Part shown: positions 8 to 51,636 of the stretch, piece after piece | Position numbering within the stretch: position 1 is the stretch's first letter | Layout of the letters: each line of letters begins with the position of its first letter | DNA from: Bacilli bacterium | GTDB lineage: Bacteria > Bacillota_I > Bacilli_A > RF39 > UBA660 | Reading direction: 5' to 3' | NCBI GenBank assembly: GCA_017441065.1 | Contig: JAFSAI010000008.1 | Coordinates: 1-54,482, forward strand | Length of the DNA stretch: 54,482 bases | Position numbers and translations under genes: made by a program | Notes under the pieces: model-generated | What the model was told of the DNA's origin: nothing | Databases searched by the model: none | The model's input: the letters and a program-made list of their open reading frames with translations, nothing else

Positions 8-34
8 TTGACTTCGGGGGGGGTAATATATACT
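8..34 (+). promoter_or_regulatory. SigA-type promoter with a G8 tract in its spacer
   Basis: A -35 box TTGACT (8-13) and a -10 box TATACT (29-34) are separated by only 15 nt. The spacer contains eight consecutive G residues (16-23), very unusual in DNA this AT-rich. Adding two G would give the optimal 17-nt spacer, so slipped-strand changes in the tract could switch the promoter. The start of the window lies just upstream, so other promoters cannot be excluded. Confidence 0.6.
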
Positions 35-60
35 TACCTTATAAATAAAAGAAGGGTAAG
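33..60 (+). promoter_or_regulatory. Hairpin covering the ribosome binding site of the first gene
   Basis: CTTACC (33-38) can pair with GGTAAG (55-60). The second arm overlaps the GAAGGG ribosome binding site that lies just before the ATG at 66. The arrangement resembles the inverted repeat upstream of the paralogue at 49183. Regulation by this hairpin is inferred; the stem is only 6 bp. Confidence 0.4.
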
Positions 61-1292: not shown

Positions 1293-1319
1293 GGAAAGTA
1301 GAGATACTTTCCTTTTTTA
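1293..1319 (+). terminator. Rho-independent terminator
   Basis: GGAAAGTA (1293-1300) pairs perfectly with TACTTTCC (1305-1312) around a GAGA loop, followed by six T. It ends the first gene's transcript before fmt. Confidence 0.85.
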
Positions 1320-4170: not shown

Positions 4171-4240
4171 TTTTTTAAAGAAATTTTAACTAAAAAAAAG
4201 GAAAACAGGGTATTGGTGACGAATATTAATAGTGAAGGGA
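4171..4240 (+). repeat. Upstream module shared with the DUF1016 gene, copy A
   Basis: This stretch in front of the bacteriocin operon aligns with 34404-34472 in front of the DUF1016 gene at roughly 80 percent identity. The longest shared parts include AATATTAATAGTGAA. It may be a common promoter/leader or a recombination arm; no clean -35/-10 pair is shared by both copies. Confidence 0.6.
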
Positions 4241-4248
4241 GGAAAAAT

Positions 4249-6303
4249 ATGAAAAATTTTAAACCTGTTATACAAAGTGATTTAAAGGATTGTGGTGTAT
4301 GTTCTATGCAGTGGATTATTAAATATTATGGAGGTTTTATTTCTTTGGAAAAATTAAGAGAAGAAACCTTAACTGATATTAATGGAACTAGTGCATATCA
4401 TATTGTTAATGCTTTTAAAAAGTGGGGATTTGATTCTCAAGGGGTTTTGGAGCATGATATAACTAGTAATAAATTAAGATATCCTTTAATTGCTCATTTA
4501 GTTATGGAAAATGGTTTAGAACATTTTGTTGTAGTTAAAGAAGTATTGAAAGATACAATATATTTAATGGATCCAGGTATCGGAAATACAAAAATGACTA
4601 TTACAAAGTTTAATAAATTATTTACAGGAAATATTATTGAAGTTTATCCAAGAGATGCAATTATAAAAATGGACCAAGAGTTATCAGTTAGTGATTTATT
4701 TTTTAAGATAATAAAAAAGGAAAAGTTTCTCATTACTAAAATTATAATTACTAGCATTTTATGGACAATTTTATTGATTGTAAGTAGTTACTATTTGAAA
4801 CTTGGTAGTAATTTAATAAATGAAGATAGCAACTTAATCAAATATTTAGTAATAGTATTTGCTATAGTTACTGGTTTAAAAGTTTTTGTTTTATATATTC
4901 GTGAATACTACGAAAATCATTTAAGTAATTTGGTTGATGTATATATTTATCCGGAATTTATAAGACACTTATTTTTTCTTCCTTTAAAGAATGTCAGAAG
5001 TAGAACAACTGGAGAAATTGTAACAAGAGTAGGAGAACTTGCTAATATAAAGAGTTTATTTTCAGATATTTTTGTTTCAGTTTTTCTAGATTCTATGATG
5101 ATGTTTATTTCTATAATAATTTTATACATGATAAATAAAGAGTTATTTTTAATCTTAGTAATATTTTTAGTTATATATATTATTTTGGGTTTAATTATAA
5201 GTAAAATTATGTATAAGAAAGTTTTAGAAAATATAAATTATCAAACTGATTTTAATAGTGTTTTAGTTGAGTCTATTGATATGTTTGAAAGTATTAAAAA
5301 TTTAAATGTTTTTAAAGTAATATTAAGAAAAATAGAAGATGTATTATCTAAATATTTACTTAATAATTATGAATTTAGTAGTTTTTATAATTTATCTAAT
5401 TTAGGAAAAGATTTTATTTTAGAATGTTCTTTCTTTATTATAAATTCCTATGGATTATGGTGTGTAATAAATGGAAATTTAGAAATAATTGATTTATTTA
5501 CATTTAACATAATACTTTCATATTGTATTGATCCTGTGAAAAATATGATTAACTTGTTACCAAAATTCAATTATGTTAGAGCGTCATTTTCAAAAATTAC
5601 AGAATTTATAAATATTGAAGAAGAAAAAGTTTTAGCTAAAGTAAGTGAAATGAAAGGAGATATTATTTTTAATAAAGTTAGTTATTCTTATAATAATTAT
5701 GATTACATATTTAATAATCTAAATTTTAGAATTAAAGAAGGAAGCCACGTTTTATTAAATGGACCATCAGGCTGTGGAAAAAGTACTGTTTGTAAAATCC
5801 TTTATAAAGAAAATATTATTAATAATGGTGAAGTTTTTATTGGTAATGATAATATTAAAGACTTATCCATTAGTACAATAAGAAATAATATTTTATATGT
5901 ATCACAAAATGAAGAATTATTTACGGGTACTATTAAAGAAAATATTTTAATAGGTAGAGAAGTAGATGATAATTTGTTTAAAGCCATTTGTAAAATATGC
6001 AGAATTGATGAAATTGTTAATAAAAAAGGATTTCGATATGATTCTTTAATTGAAACTTCTGCAAAAAATATTTCAGGAGGTGAAAAACAAAGAATAATTT
6101 TAGCAAGAGGGTTGCTTAAGAATACTAATATCATTATTTTAGATGAAGCTTTGTCTGAAGTGGATCAAAAATTAGAAAGTGAAATTATTAAAGATATAAG
6201 AAAATATTTTAAATTAAAAACGATTATTTATATTTCACATAAAAATCAAACAAATAATTTTGAATGTATATTAGATTTAGGAGAACAAAATGAATTATTT
6301 TAA
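4249..6303 (+). CDS. Peptidase-containing ABC exporter for double-glycine peptides
   Basis: A 684-residue bacteriocin-type ABC transporter that cuts GG leaders and exports the mature peptide. The N-terminal C39 peptidase has Q9, the catalytic Cys of DCGVCSMQ (C15), the His of EHFVVVKEV and the Asp of MDPGIG. A six-helix membrane domain follows (about 150-450). The ATPase has Walker A GPSGCGKST (about 504), signature ISGGEKQR (about 608) and Walker B IIILDEAL. The ATG at 4249 follows GGGAGG; an upstream TTG at 4213 would also stay open but has no ribosome binding site. It overlaps the accessory gene by 14 bp and leads an operon ending with two GG peptides. Confidence 0.92.
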   Translation: MKNFKPVIQSDLKDCGVCSMQWIIKYYGGFISLEKLREETLTDINGTSAYHIVNAFKKWGFDSQGVLEHDITSNKLRYPLIAHLVMENGLEHFVVVKEVLKDTIYLMDPGIGNTKMTITKFNKLFTGNIIEVYPRDAIIKMDQELSVSDLFFKIIKKEKFLITKIIITSILWTILLIVSSYYLKLGSNLINEDSNLIKYLVIVFAIVTGLKVFVLYIREYYENHLSNLVDVYIYPEFIRHLFFLPLKNVRSRTTGEIVTRVGELANIKSLFSDIFVSVFLDSMMMFISIIILYMINKELFLILVIFLVIYIILGLIISKIMYKKVLENINYQTDFNSVLVESIDMFESIKNLNVFKVILRKIEDVLSKYLLNNYEFSSFYNLSNLGKDFILECSFFIINSYGLWCVINGNLEIIDLFTFNIILSYCIDPVKNMINLLPKFNYVRASFSKITEFINIEEEKVLAKVSEMKGDIIFNKVSYSYNNYDYIFNNLNFRIKEGSHVLLNGPSGCGKSTVCKILYKENIINNGEVFIGNDNIKDLSISTIRNNILYVSQNEELFTGTIKENILIGREVDDNLFKAICKICRIDEIVNKKGFRYDSLIETSAKNISGGEKQRIILARGLLKNTNIIILDEALSEVDQKLESEIIKDIRKYFKLKTIIYISHKNQTNNFECILDLGEQNELF

Positions 6304-15623: not shown

Positions 15624-16415
15624 ATGAAAGTAAGAGTTATAAGTGCACTAGTAGCTATTGCAATATTAGTACCATTTTTAGTTATGGGTGGTATTCCATT
15701 TGCAATTATTGTAGGTGCTTTAAGTGTATGGGCATATAAAGAAGTGTTAGATTTAAAAAAAACACATAACGAAATACCTGATGCAGTGAAAGTATGTGGA
15801 TTATTTGCTTTATTATATTTAGTGTTAGGAAATTATGGAATTAATTCATTAGATTTTGCAGTAAGTTATTCAAGAATAATATTACCATTAATTCTTTTAT
15901 TGATACCAACAGTATTTTATAAAAAAGATAAATATACAACAAAAGATGCTTTTCATTTATTAGGTTTAGTATATTTATTAGGAATGATTTTCAATCTAAT
16001 AATTGTTATTAGAAATATAAATGTTTATTTATTATTATACTTATTATGTGTAACAGTTTTTACAGACACTTTCGCTTATTTAATAGGATGTTTAATTGGT
16101 CGCCATAAAATGGCTCCGACAATTAGTCCTAAAAAATCTTGGGAAGGTGCTATTGCTGGTCTTATTGGTGGAACTGCAATTGCTACAATTTTTTATTCTA
16201 ATTTAGTTGGAGATTTTAGCATTAAAGTTTTAATTATTACAATGATTTTATCAGTAGTTGGACAACTTGGAGACTTAGTATTTAGTAAAATAAAAAGAGA
16301 AAATGATATTAAAGATTTCTCTAATATAATGCCAGGTCATGGTGGTGTATTAGATAGACTTGATAGTTTATCATTTGTAATATTTGTTTATGTAGTAATA
16401 ATATGGTTTATATAA
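15624..16415 (+). CDS. cdsA: Phosphatidate cytidylyltransferase
   Basis: Makes CDP-diacylglycerol from phosphatidic acid and CTP at the membrane; its product is the substrate of the PgsA-like enzyme at 2898. The signature S-K-x-K-R-x4-D with PGHGGVLDRLDS near the C-terminus is complete. About eight membrane segments, 263 residues. The cdsA-rseP pair is conserved, but dxr, often between them, is absent. Confidence 0.95.
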   Translation: MKVRVISALVAIAILVPFLVMGGIPFAIIVGALSVWAYKEVLDLKKTHNEIPDAVKVCGLFALLYLVLGNYGINSLDFAVSYSRIILPLILLLIPTVFYKKDKYTTKDAFHLLGLVYLLGMIFNLIIVIRNINVYLLLYLLCVTVFTDTFAYLIGCLIGRHKMAPTISPKKSWEGAIAGLIGGTAIATIFYSNLVGDFSIKVLIITMILSVVGQLGDLVFSKIKRENDIKDFSNIMPGHGGVLDRLDSLSFVIFVYVVIIWFI

Positions 16416-32752: not shown

Positions 32753-33511
32753 ATGAATTATCAAACTGCTATATCTTTTGGACTTGTTCATATTCCCGTC
32801 ATTATGAATTCTGCTATAAGAAATAATGATATATCTTTTAATATGTTACATAAAAAATGTGGTGAAAAATTAGAATATATAAGATATTGTCCGCATTGTA
32901 AAACTAAAGTAAAAAGTGAAGAAATAGAAAAAGGATATGAATATACAGATGATAATTATATTACTTTTACAGATAGTGATTTTGATAAACTTAAAAGTGA
33001 TAATGATAAAGTAATAGAAATAATTTCTTTTGTTGATATCAATGAAATAGATCCAGTTTATTATGATAAAAGTTATACTTTAACATCAAATAAGAGCACT
33101 AAAGCATTTAATTTATTTAAAGAAGCATTAAGGAAAAGTAAAAAAGTAGCAATAGCAAAAACTTATATGAGAAATAAAGCTTATTATGTTGTAATTAGAT
33201 TTGGATATGAAAATATTATAATGGATACACTTTATTATGAAGAAGAAATAAAATTACAAAAAGAAAAAATAAAAAAAGAATTTAATGAAAAAGAGTTAAA
33301 GACTGCGATGGATTTGATTTCAGCAATGAGTGATGAATTTAAACCAGAAGAATATGTTGATGAATATCAAACTAGACTTAGAAAAGCTATTGATAAAAAG
33401 ATAAATGGTAAAGAAATAAAACCATATAAGAAGAAAAAACAAAAAAGTATTAGTGATTTGATGACTGCACTAGAAGAATCGTTGAAGGAACAAAAAAATG
33501 GAAAAAAGTAG
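32753..33511 (+). CDS. ku: Ku protein (non-homologous end joining)
   Basis: The 252-residue homodimeric Ku binds DNA ends and recruits the ligase. Characteristic regions are MNYQTAISFGLVHIPVIMNS, LHKKCGEKLEYIRYCPHCK, EEIEKGYEY and TDSDFDKL; a lysine-rich C-terminal tail (KPYKKKKQKS) follows. GGTGAT precedes the ATG at 32753; the earlier ATG at 32720 lies in the polC terminator. It overlaps the ligase gene by 14 bp. Confidence 0.94.
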   Translation: MNYQTAISFGLVHIPVIMNSAIRNNDISFNMLHKKCGEKLEYIRYCPHCKTKVKSEEIEKGYEYTDDNYITFTDSDFDKLKSDNDKVIEIISFVDINEIDPVYYDKSYTLTSNKSTKAFNLFKEALRKSKKVAIAKTYMRNKAYYVVIRFGYENIIMDTLYYEEEIKLQKEKIKKEFNEKELKTAMDLISAMSDEFKPEEYVDEYQTRLRKAIDKKINGKEIKPYKKKKQKSISDLMTALEESLKEQKNGKK

Positions 33512-34388
33512 ATTTTTGAAATTAAAGCCAATGTTGCTTCATGAAATATTTAAACCGTTTAATAGTAAAAATTATATTTTTGAAATTAAATTTGATGGTA
33601 TAAGAGCATTAATTTATATTGATAAAGGTAATATAATAATTAAAAGTAGAAATAACATTATTTTAAATGATACTTATCCAGAATTATTAAGTATTAAAGA
33701 TATAAGTGATGATACTTGTGTATTTGATGGAGAAATAGTTTTGTTTGATGATGGAAAGCCAAATTTTTCAAAATTACAAGAAAGAACAAGATTAAAAAAT
33801 AAACATCGTATAGAAGAATTTAGCCAAAATAATCCAGTTACATTTGTGTGCTTTGATGTTTTATATAAAAATAAAGATTTAACTAATTTATCTTTGATAG
33901 AAAGAAAAGAAATATTAAATAAATTCAAAGATACAAATAATTTTATAAAGACTAAATATTTTGAAGAAGAGGGTAATGAATTATTTAAACTAATAAAAAA
34001 GGAAAAGTTAGAGGGAATAATAGCTAAAGAAAAGAGTAGTAAATATAATTATGGATTAAGAACTAAAGAATGGATTAAAATTAAAAATTTTAGAGAAGAA
34101 GAATTTTATATTGCTGGTTTTATAAAAATAAAAAGTGAAAATGTAGTAAGTGCATTACTTTGTGAAAAGAAGAACAATAAATATTATTTTGTTGGCAAAG
34201 TATTATTTAGTCATAATAATAAAGATTATGAAAAAGTTATAAATTCTAAACCGATTAAAAATACTATAGAAAACTGTGATGAAAAAGCAATATTTATTAA
34301 ACCATGTTATAAATTAAAAATTAATTATATGGAGCGAACTAAAAATAATATGTTAAGGCAGCCATTTATTAAGCAAGATAATGAATAA
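33498..34388 (+). CDS. ligD: ATP-dependent DNA ligase (LigD ligase-domain type)
   Basis: A 296-residue ligase with the adenylation motif EIKFDGIRA (Lys31), motif III FDGEIVLFDD, motif IV EGIIAKEK and motif V EWIKIKNF, plus a C-terminal OB domain. It has neither the polymerase nor the phosphoesterase domain found in LigD of Bacillus or mycobacteria. Together with Ku it forms a minimal two-gene NHEJ system; gap filling would have to come from elsewhere. Confidence 0.92.
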   Translation: MEKSRFLKLKPMLLHEIFKPFNSKNYIFEIKFDGIRALIYIDKGNIIIKSRNNIILNDTYPELLSIKDISDDTCVFDGEIVLFDDGKPNFSKLQERTRLKNKHRIEEFSQNNPVTFVCFDVLYKNKDLTNLSLIERKEILNKFKDTNNFIKTKYFEEEGNELFKLIKKEKLEGIIAKEKSSKYNYGLRTKEWIKIKNFREEEFYIAGFIKIKSENVVSALLCEKKNNKYYFVGKVLFSHNNKDYEKVINSKPIKNTIENCDEKAIFIKPCYKLKINYMERTKNNMLRQPFIKQDNE

Positions 34389-34399
34389 TTATCTTTTTT
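34368..34399 (+). terminator. Terminator after ligD, left copy of a direct repeat
   Basis: AGATAAT-GAATA-ATTATCT with a T run ends the ku-ligD operon. The whole stretch ATTAAGCAAGATAATGAATA and on to the T run recurs at 35418-35448 with a single difference. Confidence 0.85.
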
Positions 34400-34403
34400 T
34401 AGT

Positions 34404-34472
34404 TTTTTTAAGGAATTTTGTTATAAAAAAAGGAAATTAAGGTATAAGTGACAAATATTAATAGTGAAAGGA
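34404..34472 (+). repeat. Upstream module shared with the bacteriocin operon, copy B
   Basis: It aligns with 4171-4240 at roughly 80 percent identity, sharing AATATTAATAGTGAA and the runs before it. TATAAG at 34443-34448 could be a -10 box here. It ends about 44 nt before the DUF1016 start. Confidence 0.6.
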
Positions 34473-34515
34473 GCTTATTAGAAATTAAAACTGTCTTCTA
34501 TAGAAAGGAAAAATT

Positions 34516-35406
34516 ATGAAGTATTATAATGAGATAAAAAATAAATTAATAGATAGCGAAATATATTGTAAGATTAAGGATTATTCAAAAGAAAGAAATA
34601 AAGTTATTACATATTTTGAAATAGGAAAATTATTGTATAAAGCCGGAAAAATTTATGGAGAAGATATAATTGGAAAATATTCTCAAAAATTAATGATTGA
34701 GGTAGGAAAAAATTATAATCCAAGAACATTGAGGAGAATAAGGCAATATTATTTAACTTTTAAAGATGAAAAATGGTCGCAAGTGGCGACCAAATTGTCT
34801 TGGAGTCATTATGCAGAATTATTGCCAATAAAAGACAAAAATAAAATGTTATACTATTTGACTGTAGCTATTAATTTGAATCTAAGTAGAAATGATTTGA
34901 GAAATAGAATAAAATCAAATGAATATGAGAGATTAGATGAAAATACTAGAAGTAAATTAATTACAAATAGCAAGTATGAAATAAAAGATTTAGTTAAAAA
35001 TCCAATTATAATTAGATGTAATAGTAATTATGAAATAATATCAGAAAAAATATTGCAAAAACTGATATTAGAAAATATATCATCTTTTTTAGATGAGCTA
35101 GGAATTGGTTTTACATTTATAAGAAATGAATATAAAATTAAGTTGGGAGATAAATATAACTATATTGATTTGCTTTTATATAACATAAAATTTAAATGTT
35201 ATGTAGTAGTAGAATTAAAAATTACTGAATTAAAGAAGGAACACATTGGACAAATACAAACTTATATGAATTATATAGATAAAAATTTGAAAACAATAGA
35301 CGAAGGAAAAACTATAGGAATAATTATAGTTAAGAAGAATGATAAATATATTATGGAGTATTGTTCTGATGACAAAATTATTTCTAAAGAATATATGATA
35401 GTATAA
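34516..35406 (+). CDS. DUF1016/YhcG-type nuclease
   Basis: A 296-residue protein with the N-terminal DUF1016 helical domain (ITYFEIGKLLYKAGKIYGED, then YNPRTLRRIRQYY, KLSWSHYAELL) and a C-terminal PDDEXK-like nuclease domain (YIDLLLYNIKFKCYVVVELK). Such proteins are common in mobile islands next to restriction systems and retrons. GGGAAAGG is not present, but GAAAGGAAAAATT lies before the ATG. No methylase or other partner is adjacent. The gene is bracketed by a terminator repeat and looks inserted. Confidence 0.92.
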   Translation: MKYYNEIKNKLIDSEIYCKIKDYSKERNKVITYFEIGKLLYKAGKIYGEDIIGKYSQKLMIEVGKNYNPRTLRRIRQYYLTFKDEKWSQVATKLSWSHYAELLPIKDKNKMLYYLTVAINLNLSRNDLRNRIKSNEYERLDENTRSKLITNSKYEIKDLVKNPIIIRCNSNYEIISEKILQKLILENISSFLDELGIGFTFIRNEYKIKLGDKYNYIDLLLYNIKFKCYVVVELKITELKKEHIGQIQTYMNYIDKNLKTIDEGKTIGIIIVKKNDKYIMEYCSDDKIISKEYMIV

Positions 35407-36985: not shown

Positions 36986-38707
36986 ATGAGCGTTATAAAA
37001 GTAATGAGTGAGAATTTAGCTAATAAAATAGCAGCAGGTGAAGTTGTTGAAAAATGTGCTTCAGTTGTTAAAGAATTAGTTGAAAATAGTATCGATGCTA
37101 AAGCTAAAAATATAAAGATTAATTTACTTAAAGGTGGATTATCTGAAATAACAGTTATAGATGATGGCTTAGGTATGGATGAATCTGATGCTACTCTTGC
37201 TTTTCAAAGACATGCAACTAGTAAAATATATAAAGATGATGATTTGTTTTTTATAGATACTTTAGGATTCCGCGGCGAAGCTTTACCATCTATTGCATCA
37301 GTTTCAGAAGTAGTTTTAGAAACATGTCAAAAAGATGTAGGAACACTTATCCATATAAAAGGTGGAATATTAGTAGAAAAAAGTGCTAGTAGTGCTCGTA
37401 CTGGTACTAGAATAACAATAACAAATTTGTTTTTTAATACGCCAGCAAGACTTAAGTATTTAAAAAGTGAGCAAACAGAACTTGCTAATACAGTATCATT
37501 TATTGAAAAATTATCTTTAGCGAAACCAAATATTTCATTTACTTTAACAAACAATGGTAGTACTGTTGTTAAAACTAGTGGAAGTGGTAATTTACTTAAA
37601 ACTATTCATGAAATATATGGATTACAAGTATCTAGTAAAATGTTAGAAATTAAAGCTTTAAATGATGATTTTGAAATAAAAGGATTTGTATGTAAACCAG
37701 AAATTTTAAAATCAAATAGAAACCATTTAATTACTTTTATAAATGGGAGAGTAGTAAAAAATGGTGATGTTAATAGAGCAATAAATGATGCTTATTATAC
37801 TTATAAACCCGAGGGAAAATTTCCAATAGTAGTAATTAACATTGAAACAGATCCAACACTAGTTGATGTAAATATTCATCCAACCAAACAAGATGTTAAA
37901 TTAAGTAAAATAGATTCTTTATATAATTTAATTTATGAAACTATAAAAACACGATTATATGAAAGTTTGTTAATTCCTGATGCTATACCTAAAAAAGAAG
38001 TAGAAAGTATTAAGGATTCTTTTGTTCAAATTGAAGACGAAAAAACTATGGAAGTAAAACAAACAACATTTGATTTTGGTGAAGAAGATAAAGAAGAAGT
38101 CGTAAAAAATGAAGAGTTTAAAAGTTTAGTTTTATATCCTGTTGGACTTTGTCATGGTACTTATATAGTTTGTGAAAATGATGAAGGCATTTATTTACTT
38201 GATCAACATGCTGCTCAAGAAAGAGTTAACTACGAAAATTATTTAGAAAATTTAAAAAATGAAAAAGTAAATATAACTAATATGTTAATTCCTATTACTA
38301 TAGAATTTTCTCAAAGTGAATATATTATCTTTAAAAATAATTCTGATAAATTTAGTGAAATGGGTTTTGAATGGGTAGAATTTGGTATTAATACAATTTC
38401 AGTTAAAGCTCATCCTACTTGGCTTAGAACGGGTTATGAAGAGGAATCTATTAGAAAGATAATTGATTTAATTATTAATTTACATGGTGAATTTGACGTT
38501 ATTAAGTTTAGAGAAAATGTTGCAATTACTTTAGCATGTAAAATGGCAATAAAAGCTAATGAACATATTTCGATGATGGAAATTGAGGGATTATTAAAAA
38601 ATTTAGTTAAATGTGATAATCCATATAATTGTCCTCATGGAAGACCAACTATTATAAAATTTAGTATATATGATTTAGAAAAAATGTTTAAAAGAGCAAT
38701 GAGTTAA
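36986..38707 (+). CDS. mutL: DNA mismatch repair protein MutL
   Basis: The N-terminal GHKL ATPase has KELVENSIDA, DDGLGMD, RHATSKI and GFRGEALPSIA. The C-terminal domain has the endonuclease motif DQHAAQERVNYE and the zinc site CPHGRP, so it is a nicking MutL. At 573 residues it is within the family range. mutS, often adjacent, is not in this window. Confidence 0.96.
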   Translation: MSVIKVMSENLANKIAAGEVVEKCASVVKELVENSIDAKAKNIKINLLKGGLSEITVIDDGLGMDESDATLAFQRHATSKIYKDDDLFFIDTLGFRGEALPSIASVSEVVLETCQKDVGTLIHIKGGILVEKSASSARTGTRITITNLFFNTPARLKYLKSEQTELANTVSFIEKLSLAKPNISFTLTNNGSTVVKTSGSGNLLKTIHEIYGLQVSSKMLEIKALNDDFEIKGFVCKPEILKSNRNHLITFINGRVVKNGDVNRAINDAYYTYKPEGKFPIVVINIETDPTLVDVNIHPTKQDVKLSKIDSLYNLIYETIKTRLYESLLIPDAIPKKEVESIKDSFVQIEDEKTMEVKQTTFDFGEEDKEEVVKNEEFKSLVLYPVGLCHGTYIVCENDEGIYLLDQHAAQERVNYENYLENLKNEKVNITNMLIPITIEFSQSEYIIFKNNSDKFSEMGFEWVEFGINTISVKAHPTWLRTGYEEESIRKIIDLIINLHGEFDVIKFRENVAITLACKMAIKANEHISMMEIEGLLKNLVKCDNPYNCPHGRPTIIKFSIYDLEKMFKRAMS

Positions 38708-48827: not shown

Positions 48828-49062
48828 GTTTATATTCAACTATATCTGTAATATTACAATCTAAATAGTCACAAATTCTTGCTAAGACAATTATGTCTAT
48901 TCTAACTAAATCACCAGTCATAAGTCTTTTAATAACTTTAAAATCGGTATTTGTATCACGCATTAATTTATTAATACTTATATTTTTATTATTTAATAAT
49001 TTTTCCAATTTAAATAAATAATATCCTGATTCGATATTAATTTTCTTATTCTCCATAGACAT
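48823..49062 (-). CDS. XRE-family helix-turn-helix regulator
   Basis: A 79-residue DNA-binding protein of the HTH_26/Cro type: KLEKLLNNKNISINKLMRDT, FKVIKRLMTGDLVRIDI, LARICDYLDCNITDIVEY. AGAAGGG precedes the ATG. It is divergent from the surface-protein pair, and the intergenic gap carries a 20-bp palindrome, so autoregulation or control of that pair is likely (inferred). Confidence 0.9.
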   Translation of the reverse strand: MSMENKKINIESGYYLFKLEKLLNNKNISINKLMRDTNTDFKVIKRLMTGDLVRIDIIVLARICDYLDCNITDIVEYKH

Positions 49063-49105
49063 AAACCCTTCTATTTTTATTGTAATAATTAAAGTAGGGG
49101 TCGAC

Positions 49106-49125
49106 TATTGGTTATATAACCAATA
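49106..49125. promoter_or_regulatory. 20-bp perfect palindrome, probable operator
   Basis: TATTGGTTATATAACCAATA is its own reverse complement. It sits between the divergent XRE gene and the surface-protein gene, 44 nt before the first and 58 nt before the second, and is the obvious site for the regulator. Confidence 0.75.
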
Positions 49126-49143
49126 TTTATTTAAAAATAAAAA

Positions 49144-49170
49144 CTTTATACTAATTGTAGTAGTATAAAG
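49144..49170 (+). promoter_or_regulatory. Inverted repeat beside the ribosome binding site
   Basis: CTTTATACTA (49144-49153) and TAGTATAAAG (49161-49170) are perfect complements with a 7-nt loop. The right arm ends in the AAAGGAT ribosome binding site of the ATG at 49183. It may be an operator or an RNA hairpin that masks translation. Confidence 0.6.
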
Positions 49171-49182
49171 GATGGTCTTATT

Positions 49183-50529
49183 ATGTCTAAATATAAAAAA
49201 CAAATAATATTATTTCTTTTAATTATAGAATTATGTTCGGTATATTTAACTTTTTCGTCTTTTAACAATAAAGATATAACAAAGATCAAAGAAGTTAGTA
49301 AGGTAGATAAAGAAATGTTTTCAATGTATGTAATTAATGAAACTACAGGTAAATATGAAGAAGTTACAGATAGTGAATATTGGCCAAGTGGTAATTATAA
49401 ATTGAATACAACAAAATCAAGTTGTGTAGATACAAAAGGTAAAAGTGTATCAAGTGATGTATTAAATTATAAGGGTGATAAGTTAACTGTATCTAGTAAC
49501 CAAACTTTATTCTGTTATTTATACTTTGATATAAAAGCAGATATCACTATTAATGTATCAACAGATGGTGTTACAGGAGTATTACCAACAACAGGAGGAT
49601 ATAAAAATACTTTGAGTTGTAATGATTCAACATATAGTTGGAATCCAATATATCAAAGAATAGAGTTTAGTGGTGTATTAAGTGATGAAGTTAAATGTAA
49701 TTTGGATTATACAAAAGATACAGAAACACATACTACTTTAATTAGTGAAGTAGAAAGTAAAGCTCAAACAAACGAAAATGGATATAGATATTCTGGAAAA
49801 CAACCGGATAACTGGGTATGGTTTAATGGCGAAAAATGGAGAATTATTGGAAGTATACCAACAACATTAGCATATGGTACAAAAACTAATTTAGTAAAAA
49901 TAATAAGAAACGAATCAATTGGGGGACTTGCATTTAATAGTGTAAATTCAAATCCTGAATGGGGTAACAACACTCTTTATAAATTGCTTAATACAAAATA
50001 TTATGGTAAAGTCGATGCCACTGGAGCAAGTCCGTGTTTAGGATATAGTACAGGTGGTTATGCATTATGTAATTATGAAGAAATAGGAATATCAAGTAGT
50101 GGTGACGATTATTATGGAAGAATGATAAAAGATGTATATTGGAATGTTGGAACAGTAAATAATACATCAACAAAAATATCGGTTTCGTATACATCTGAAT
50201 CAGGAACAAAATCTTCGATAACAGGAAAAATAGGATTAATGAGTGCAAGTGATTACGGATATGCTACTAGTGGAATAACATATAGTAGTGTTGGATTGTC
50301 ATCATTATCAAGTTATGAACAAAACAATTGGTTGTATGGGCAAGGAGATGAGTGGACATTAACTCCAATTAACTCATCTAGTGTTATGTATGCTTCGGAC
50401 GATGGAAATGTTTACTATTTTACGTTAGATTCAGGAATTGTTGTTAGACCTGTTGTTTGTCTAGATTCTTCAGTATATATAATAAGTGGAAATGGGACTG
50501 AAGTAAATCCATACCAAATAGGGATGTAA
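49183..50529 (+). CDS. Surface protein A of a tandem pair (variable loop before VRP motif)
   Basis: A 448-residue protein with a signal anchor (about 6-23), the KVDKEMFSMYV module also seen in the protein at 66, a Cys-bearing beta region, and a C-terminal domain beginning NGYRYSGKQPDNWVWFNGEK. The last part, NEWTLTP-like, has a loop (about 390-420) then VRPVVCLDSSVYIISGNGT and NPYQI. From 50067 to 50350 it is nearly identical in DNA to the next gene, but the loop is wholly different. The fold is probably DUF6273/FGE-sulfatase-like. Role unknown; adhesin or ligand-binding surface protein suggested. Confidence 0.82.
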   Translation: MSKYKKQIILFLLIIELCSVYLTFSSFNNKDITKIKEVSKVDKEMFSMYVINETTGKYEEVTDSEYWPSGNYKLNTTKSSCVDTKGKSVSSDVLNYKGDKLTVSSNQTLFCYLYFDIKADITINVSTDGVTGVLPTTGGYKNTLSCNDSTYSWNPIYQRIEFSGVLSDEVKCNLDYTKDTETHTTLISEVESKAQTNENGYRYSGKQPDNWVWFNGEKWRIIGSIPTTLAYGTKTNLVKIIRNESIGGLAFNSVNSNPEWGNNTLYKLLNTKYYGKVDATGASPCLGYSTGGYALCNYEEIGISSSGDDYYGRMIKDVYWNVGTVNNTSTKISVSYTSESGTKSSITGKIGLMSASDYGYATSGITYSSVGLSSLSSYEQNNWLYGQGDEWTLTPINSSSVMYASDDGNVYYFTLDSGIVVRPVVCLDSSVYIISGNGTEVNPYQIGM

Positions 50530-50553
50530 GAATTTAATTTTATGGAGATAAAA

Positions 50554-51636
50554 ATGAAAAACAAAAAAATCGTAGTAATTATTATAATAATATTGTCATT
50601 AATAACAATACTATCAATAACTAAAAATAACAAAAAATATATAATGCGAGATGGAATGATGTTAGCGCTAAGTTTAGATGGAAGTTCAATAACATCATTT
50701 CCAGAAAGAGGAGAATATGAAGTGTCTGTAGACTGTGGAGATACAGCTGTGGGAAAATGGCTAGCAGAAGAATGGAATTTAGCTATAGAAGATATAACCG
50801 AAAATATAAAATGTAATATAAATTTTTCAACTAATCCTTTTATCTTAAAAAACAAAGTAGAAAGTATAAATACAACAAATAATAATGGATATAGATATTC
50901 AGGCAAACAACCGAATAACTGGATATGGTTTAATAGAGAAAAGTGGAGAATTATTGGAAGTGTTCCTGTAACGTTGGCTAATGGTACACAAACCCATTTA
51001 GTTAAAATAATTAGAAGTGAATCAATTGGAGGATTAATTTTTGATAGTTCTGCCACAAATTTAAAATGGGGAAGTAATACATTATATACATTGTTAAATA
51101 CAAAATATTATGGTAAAGTCGATGCTACTGGTACAAATCCTTGCTTAGGGTATCAAACGACTGGATATCCACTATGCAATTACGAAGAAATAGGAATATC
51201 AAGTAGTGGTGATGATTATTATGGAAGAATGATAAAAGATGTATATTGGAATGTCGGAGCAGTAAGTGATACATCAACAAAAATATCGGTTTTATATACA
51301 TCTGAATCAGAAACAAAATCTTCGATAACAGGAAAAATAGGATTAATGAGTGCAAGTGATTACGGATATGCTACTAGCAGAATAACATATAGTAGTGTTG
51401 AATTGTCATCATTATCAAGTTATGAACAAAATAATTGGTTATATGGGCAAGGAAATGAGTGGACACTTACCCCGAGCGGCTCATATGCTGCGTTTAATTT
51501 ACACTATGATGGTAAGATAGGCAATGCTCTCGTATTTTATGGGCTTGCAGTTCGTCCAGTTGTATATCTAAACTCTTCAGTATATATAGTAAGTGGAGAT
51601 GGAACGGAAGGCAATCCGTATCAAATAGCAATGTAA
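50554..51636 (+). CDS. Surface protein B of a tandem pair
   Basis: 360 residues with a membrane anchor (about 5-20) and a shortened N-terminal region lacking the KVDKEMF module. The C-terminal domain from NGYRYSGKQPNNWIWFNREK onward follows the preceding protein closely up to EWTLTP, then shows a different loop (SGSYAAFNLHYDGKIGN and on) of the same length before VRPVVYL. Codons in this loop (CCG AGC GGC, CTC) are richer in GC than the rest. The ATG at 50554 follows GGAG; ATG 50542 has no site. Confidence 0.82.
   Translation: MKNKKIVVIIIIILSLITILSITKNNKKYIMRDGMMLALSLDGSSITSFPERGEYEVSVDCGDTAVGKWLAEEWNLAIEDITENIKCNINFSTNPFILKNKVESINTTNNNGYRYSGKQPNNWIWFNREKWRIIGSVPVTLANGTQTHLVKIIRSESIGGLIFDSSATNLKWGSNTLYTLLNTKYYGKVDATGTNPCLGYQTTGYPLCNYEEIGISSSGDDYYGRMIKDVYWNVGAVSDTSTKISVLYTSESETKSSITGKIGLMSASDYGYATSRITYSSVELSSLSSYEQNNWLYGQGNEWTLTPSGSYAAFNLHYDGKIGNALVFYGLAVRPVVYLNSSVYIVSGDGTEGNPYQIAM

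Follow-up and report, generated by a model that had tools for sequence, protein, structure and literature searches.

Poly-G tracts in the promoter spacers of predicted lectin-like surface protein genes as a probable slippage switch in an uncultured gut Bacilli genome

The G tract at the start of the DNA analyzed here (the window, i.e., the whole stretch of 54,482 nt) is very probably a phase-variation switch, in which replication slippage alters the spacer length of a sigma-70-type promoter; slippage in populations and its effect on transcription are inferred. An earlier note, made from the letters alone, had interpreted the tract in this way for a single gene. Its interpretation is supported, but it missed the scale, since the genome has 31 promoters of this kind, of which the window promoter is only one.

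Results

A G8 tract occupies a short promoter spacer at the start of the window

The window is the entire contig C37 of a 44-contig genome of 1,213,623 bases, with no sequence upstream of base 1. The promoter is laid out as TTGACT-TC-G8-TAATA-TATACT, and the same arrangement is present in the other copies of the genome and in congeners (Table 1). The G8 is the sole run of G or C of at least 6 nt across the window, and only 0.18 G7 words per window are expected from dinucleotide shuffles, which bears out the claim that the tract is real and unexpected by chance; its placement between the two hexamers, with a 15-nt spacer, was also confirmed. The promoter is absent from the output of a promoter scanner, because the scanner accepts only spacers of 16-18 nt. 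The 3′ edge of the tract lies 42 nt upstream of the ATG of the surface protein gene, and translational (frameshift) phase variation is ruled out for this gene, since the tract is upstream of the coding sequence. An intramolecular G-quadruplex was set aside by reasoning only, as one run of 8-9 G does not supply the separate runs between which loops would form.

False poly-G can be produced by two-colour sequencers, and the window tract starts only 15 nt from the contig start, so that an assembly or sequencing artefact near a contig end had to be considered. This explanation is hardly credible: 14 of the 31 tracts of the genome lie more than 160 nt inside their contigs with conserved sequence on both sides, and the design was found again in independent metagenome-assembled genomes and in genomes of cultured isolates. 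Most likely, contig C37 begins at the cassette since assembly breaks in the repeat, as the remaining 17 tracts are all no more than 160 nt away from a contig end. When the 31 copies were read, a few contigs were also seen to stop shortly downstream of the G tract.

Table 1. Coordinates of the features discussed (window positions unless another contig is given)
Feature	Position	Strand	Basis or remark
A/T-rich UP-like stretch, cut by contig start	1-7	+	other copies extend upstream A/T-rich; UP function inferred
-35 hexamer TTGACT	8-13	+	sequence; TTGACA/T in all congeners with the G-tract spacer design
G8 tract	16-23	+	sequence; inside the 15-nt spacer (14-28)
-10 hexamer TATACT	29-34	+	sequence; TATAAT in the equivalent position in congeners
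GAAGGG, likely ribosome-binding site	51-56	+	sequence; position conserved among copies
Surface protein gene, 395 aa	66-1253	+	ATG at 66; N-terminal membrane helix; predicted C-type-lectin-like domain, residues 127-395
Intrinsic terminator-like hairpin and T run	1293-1318	+	computed
mutL, mismatch repair gene bearing on slippage rate	36986-38707	+	Pfam MutL_C, DNA_mis_repair
Family paralogue without G tract	49183-50529	+	N-terminal match; upstream sequence
Second paralogue, same C-terminal domain type, without G tract	50542-51636	+	alignment
Complete diversity-generating retroelement	G000:C26:12952-17920 (L306)		
Retroelement target gene, C-terminal variable region	C26 12952-14634		
Retroelement template repeat	C26 near 15724-15827		
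Avd	C26 16453-16809		
Reverse transcriptase	C26 16793-17920		

All long G runs of the genome lie in copies of one promoter cassette

A whole-genome pattern search in which each tract was read gave 31 G runs of at least 7 in the 1.21 Mb, and all 31 are found in near-identical promoter cassettes of one secreted-protein family (21 G8 and 10 G9). G10 and G11, the predicted full-on lengths, are absent from all 31 assembled copies. The cassette consists, in order, of an A/T-rich stretch, TTGACT, the G8 or G9 tract, TAATATATACTTACC or a near variant, a ribosome site and the start codon of a frame whose hydrophobic N-terminus is conserved; the exceptions are three copies with TAGACT instead of TTGACT, and one contig that starts only at the TTC preceding the tract. 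In the three TAGACT copies a TATAAT lies immediately 3′ of the G tract, and by inference from these motifs they seem to belong to an over-long-spacer design.

Run-length statistics were obtained from 369 kb of genome stretches and from whole-genome pattern searches. The histogram of G runs in the 369 kb is bimodal (24 G5, 2 G6, 0 G7, 12 G8 and 6 G9), with counts that drop about sevenfold per added base until G6 and reach 0 at G7. The G8 and G9 tracts are a separate sequence class and not the tail of the run-length distribution. A/T runs in the same 369 kb fall steeply past seven (449, 53 and 4 at lengths 7, 8 and 9), in coding and non-coding sequence alike, which suggests, without proving it, that A/T runs of at least 8 are unstable or selected against in this genome.

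As the earlier note had expected, tract length is variable, here between copies. The 27 flanking bases are identical in 20 copies, and the tracts within them are 13 G8 and 7 G9. On gene trees from which the promoter had been excluded, tract length changed 5 times in this genome, where shuffled lengths gave a mean of 6.2, and 12 times in congener G004, where they gave 10.0; the length has no phylogenetic signal and changes about as often as shuffled lengths do.

The 31 loci share about 75-100 nt of identity, with the promoter and the first codons near-identical and the downstream coding sequences diverged, as would be found if the cassette were mainly a recombination site for surface-gene exchange and the G tract were incidental or a marker. 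Such a role is compatible with phase variation and does not exclude it. As the principal explanation, however, it is very improbable, as it leaves unexplained the spacer geometry and the length variation, as well as the conserved tract with unrelated flanks elsewhere and the tracts within coding sequences described below.

The tract places the spacer below the length of the other promoters

The consensus promoters without a G tract that precede open frames have spacers of 17 nt (10 cases) or 18 nt (8 cases), with one case each at 13, 19 and 20 nt, and the G-tract promoters of the same genome have spacers of 15 nt (11 cases) or 16 nt (4 cases). A spacer of 15 nt is therefore below the optimum of 17, as had been claimed, also by the measure of the genome's own promoters. 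In a promoter of the window type the spacer is 15 nt at G8, 16 nt at G9 and 17 nt at G10, and the membership test, that the tract moves the spacer across the optimum of about 17 nt, is met on the basis of the sequence alone.

The dependence of sigma-70 promoters on spacer length is established, and by inference from this behaviour G8 should give a weak, G9 an intermediate and G10-G11 a strong promoter. At G8 the window gene is probably expressed weakly or not at all, an effect on transcription that is itself inferred. Likewise, switching "on and off", as first proposed, is an inference, and graded expression is equally possible. In Treponema pallidum tp0126 the highest measured expression was at a 17-nt spacer (PMC7864442).

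The targets are predicted surface proteins, with a predicted lectin-like fold in the window protein

The assignment of the G-tract targets as surface proteins is a prediction only. A hydrophobic N-terminal segment was present in 82 of the 89 genes behind promoter tracts versus 17 of 44 window ORFs, and the membrane helix of the window protein comprises residues 6-30 in its model, in agreement with the secreted or anchored target that had been proposed; no C-terminal sorting signal was seen in the window protein. Its N-terminal homologues in this genome number 39, and two paralogues without a G tract lie in the window itself (Table 1). A palindrome, ATTGGTTATATAACCAAT, is located upstream of the first of them (~49050-49180) and is possibly an operator. 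Also encoded in the window is a Peptidase-C39 ABC exporter (4213-6303), of the type associated with bacteriocins or peptides.

The structure model of the window protein (mean pLDDT 69.8, i.e., moderate; pTM 0.64) gave one clear match among solved structures: residues 127-395 match the IgA peptidase of Thomasclavelia ramosa in its N-terminal domain (9qa6; Z 11.6, rmsd 3.3, 185 residues, 17% identity), and the next-best match has a Z of 2.6. That domain has been described as C-type-lectin-like and DUF6273. Pfam found no family in the window protein at E ≤ 1, Pfam and NCBIfam gave nothing useful for the surface proteins, and a profile search of PDB sequences gave no match, so that the assignment rests on the modelled fold alone; the window protein is predicted to have a C-type-lectin-like fold, and it is not classed as a DUF6273 member. 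The two proteins are alike in this predicted fold, but at the low identity given above, and the window protein has no peptidase domain. The T. ramosa enzyme cleaves IgA without its N-terminal domain, and therefore neither IgA binding nor an IgA-related function can be inferred for the window protein.

A diversity-generating retroelement has a paralogue as its target

The genome carries a complete diversity-generating retroelement on contig C26 (Table 1). The gene that it targets is paralogous to the G-tract family yet lacks the G tract, and the variable region of this gene differs from the template repeat by 14 adenine mismatches and 1 other. The template repeat gave no match in the window gene, which was rejected as a target. 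A few G-tract family members keep a recognizable version of the variable region with many non-adenine changes, so they are relatives and not current targets.

The spacer design is genus-wide and recurs in other lineages

The spacer G-tract design is genus-wide. Among 37 genomes that represent the genus (the present one counted), all but one have tracts of at least 7 G, with up to 57 per genome, and homologues of the N-terminal part of the window protein were found in 36 of 38; the congener records are mostly from rabbit gut. The flanks of the congeners are species-specific, but the tract still lies between good hexamers, with a spacer of 7+n, 8+n or 10+n in which n is mostly 8-9, and the spacer ranges from 15 to 20 nt across species while the tract keeps 8-9 G. 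In congener G004 identical flanks enclose 8 or 9 G, and four tandem genes have 10, 9, 9 and 8. In line with the interpretation of the earlier note, the congeners repeat the design with other flanks and with lengths that vary from G7 to G11 across copies.

Nine congener genes (L083, L084, L097, L115, L287, L288, L293, L294 and L296) carry a G8-G10 tract within their first codons, which are signal-peptide codons. As assembled, every one of these genes is frame-OFF and has a long open frame directly after the tract, which is a signature of translational phase variation and provides independent support for slippage in the genus.

These data also bear on the possibility that the G tract serves the regulator of a surface-protein regulon as a fixed binding site, so that the length of the tract hardly matters. 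The strong conservation of the cassette within the genome would fit such a site, as would congener G031, in which nearly all tracts are G8. We nevertheless consider it unlikely: the length varies from G7 to G11 across copies while the flanks remain constant, and the tract changes its position relative to the hexamers and even occurs within coding sequences, for which a single operator offers no explanation. A steady tract of 8-9 G within a spacer of 15-20 nt is more readily explained by a slippery element than by a fixed site for a regulator.

In a class-wide sample the promoter pattern was matched in 9 of 247 genomes, and the reversed pattern in none. A separate flank design, TTGACGTG-Gn-TAGTTT-TATAAT, is seen in the 36 G-tract promoters of genome G279, which belongs to another genus of the same family; locus L131 appears to lie in this genome. 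Outside the class, the matches listed include 27 from one genome of Candidatus Ancillula, with tracts of about G9 to G15, and 10 and 11 from two genomes of Candidatus Faecalibacterium. The cultured mouse-gut bacteria Pumilibacter muris (strain CLA-AA-M08), P. intestinalis and Anaerocaecibacter muris had 10, 6 and 5 promoter matches, again among the matches listed, and the reversed pattern gave 0 matches in the Ancillula, Faecalibacterium, Pumilibacter and Anaerocaecibacter genomes. Example loci of the out-of-class design are L147, L175, L177, L132, L164 and L191, and several out-of-class G-tract promoters stand upstream of lipoprotein-like signal peptides. The out-of-class counts, being restricted to the matches listed, are no census, and single matches in GC-rich genomes are possibly due to chance. 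When the viral contigs of IMG/VR were scanned, the promoter gave 0 matches. The same promoter design is present in cultured mouse-gut bacteria, which opens the proposal to laboratory tests.

Discussion

In the proposed slippage switch, the gain or loss of a G would shift the distance between the -35 and -10 hexamers, and the resulting spacer length would set the transcription of each family member at random and reversibly. With about 31 loci, each with its own tract and switching independently, a clonal population would then show changing subsets of lectin-like surface proteins. The length variation on which this rests was observed among the paralogues of a single assembly and within congener G004, with one genome per species and no reads, and slippage in living populations remains inferred; deposited G-tract lengths, according to a published warning, can differ from the lengths in cells (PMC9187656). 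Counted against the switch are the lack of G10 and G11 among the 31 copies, the near-uniform G8 of G031, a -10 hexamer that is TATACT and not TATAAT, and the presence of mismatch repair genes: MutS is encoded in the genome in addition to the mutL of the window, so slippage rates may be slow or moderate. Among the other window genes, Ku and an ATP-dependent DNA ligase are adjacent and are followed by a YhcG-type PDDEXK nuclease gene (32753-35406); in this reduced genome they appear to form a set for end joining.

We lean, without great assurance, towards a broader picture, in which the genus runs much of its secreted lectin-like repertoire via dozens of independent, default-weak spacer switches while a retroelement diversifies a paralogue, so that a combinatorial surface changes within a clone, and in which the same promoter trick has arisen separately in several gut lineages, cultured ones included. 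Homopolymer promoter switches are known mostly from pathogens, with few genes each. The present genome, of 1.2 Mb and from a presumed gut commensal, appears to maintain 31 switches on lectin-like proteins, which could meet host glycans, antibodies or phages, although their ligands have not been shown. The expression of genes in such metagenome-assembled genomes should not be assumed. No paper that combines RF39 with phase variation was found in the literature.

The type of switch itself is known from porA, tp0126 and vlp, and what is new is the lineage and the unusual scale, which takes in a whole repertoire. In Neisseria meningitidis porA the poly-G likewise lies between -35 and -10, and single-base changes alter the transcription of the surface protein (PMC3899988; PMC7864442); the control of transcription by a spacer poly-G is experimental both for porA (PMC3899988) and for T. 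pallidum tp0126 (PMC7864442). However, porA is one gene of a proteobacterial pathogen, whereas the genome studied here has 31 paralogous loci, which rest at 15-16 nt. In T. pallidum several outer-membrane protein genes (tp0126, tprE/G/J and tprL) likewise have a promoter poly-G, and its lengths vary within an isolate (PMC7864442); these are a handful of loci with dissimilar promoters, for which the effect was shown experimentally, whereas in the window genome it is inferred. The vlp genes of Mycoplasma hyorhinis are similar in that each gene of this surface-protein family carries a separate homopolymer tract in its promoter region (PMC10502178), but there the tract is poly-A and the genes are few and encode lipoproteins, in contrast to the poly-G, the 31 loci and the C-type-lectin-like proteins of the window genome. 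Finally, the pilus G-tracts of Bifidobacterium breve also belong to a gut commensal, in which a mixture of lengths was measured in the population, and its authors mention further tracts in promoter spacers (PMC9187656); the switch characterized there is, however, translational (frameshift) and not a spacer switch.
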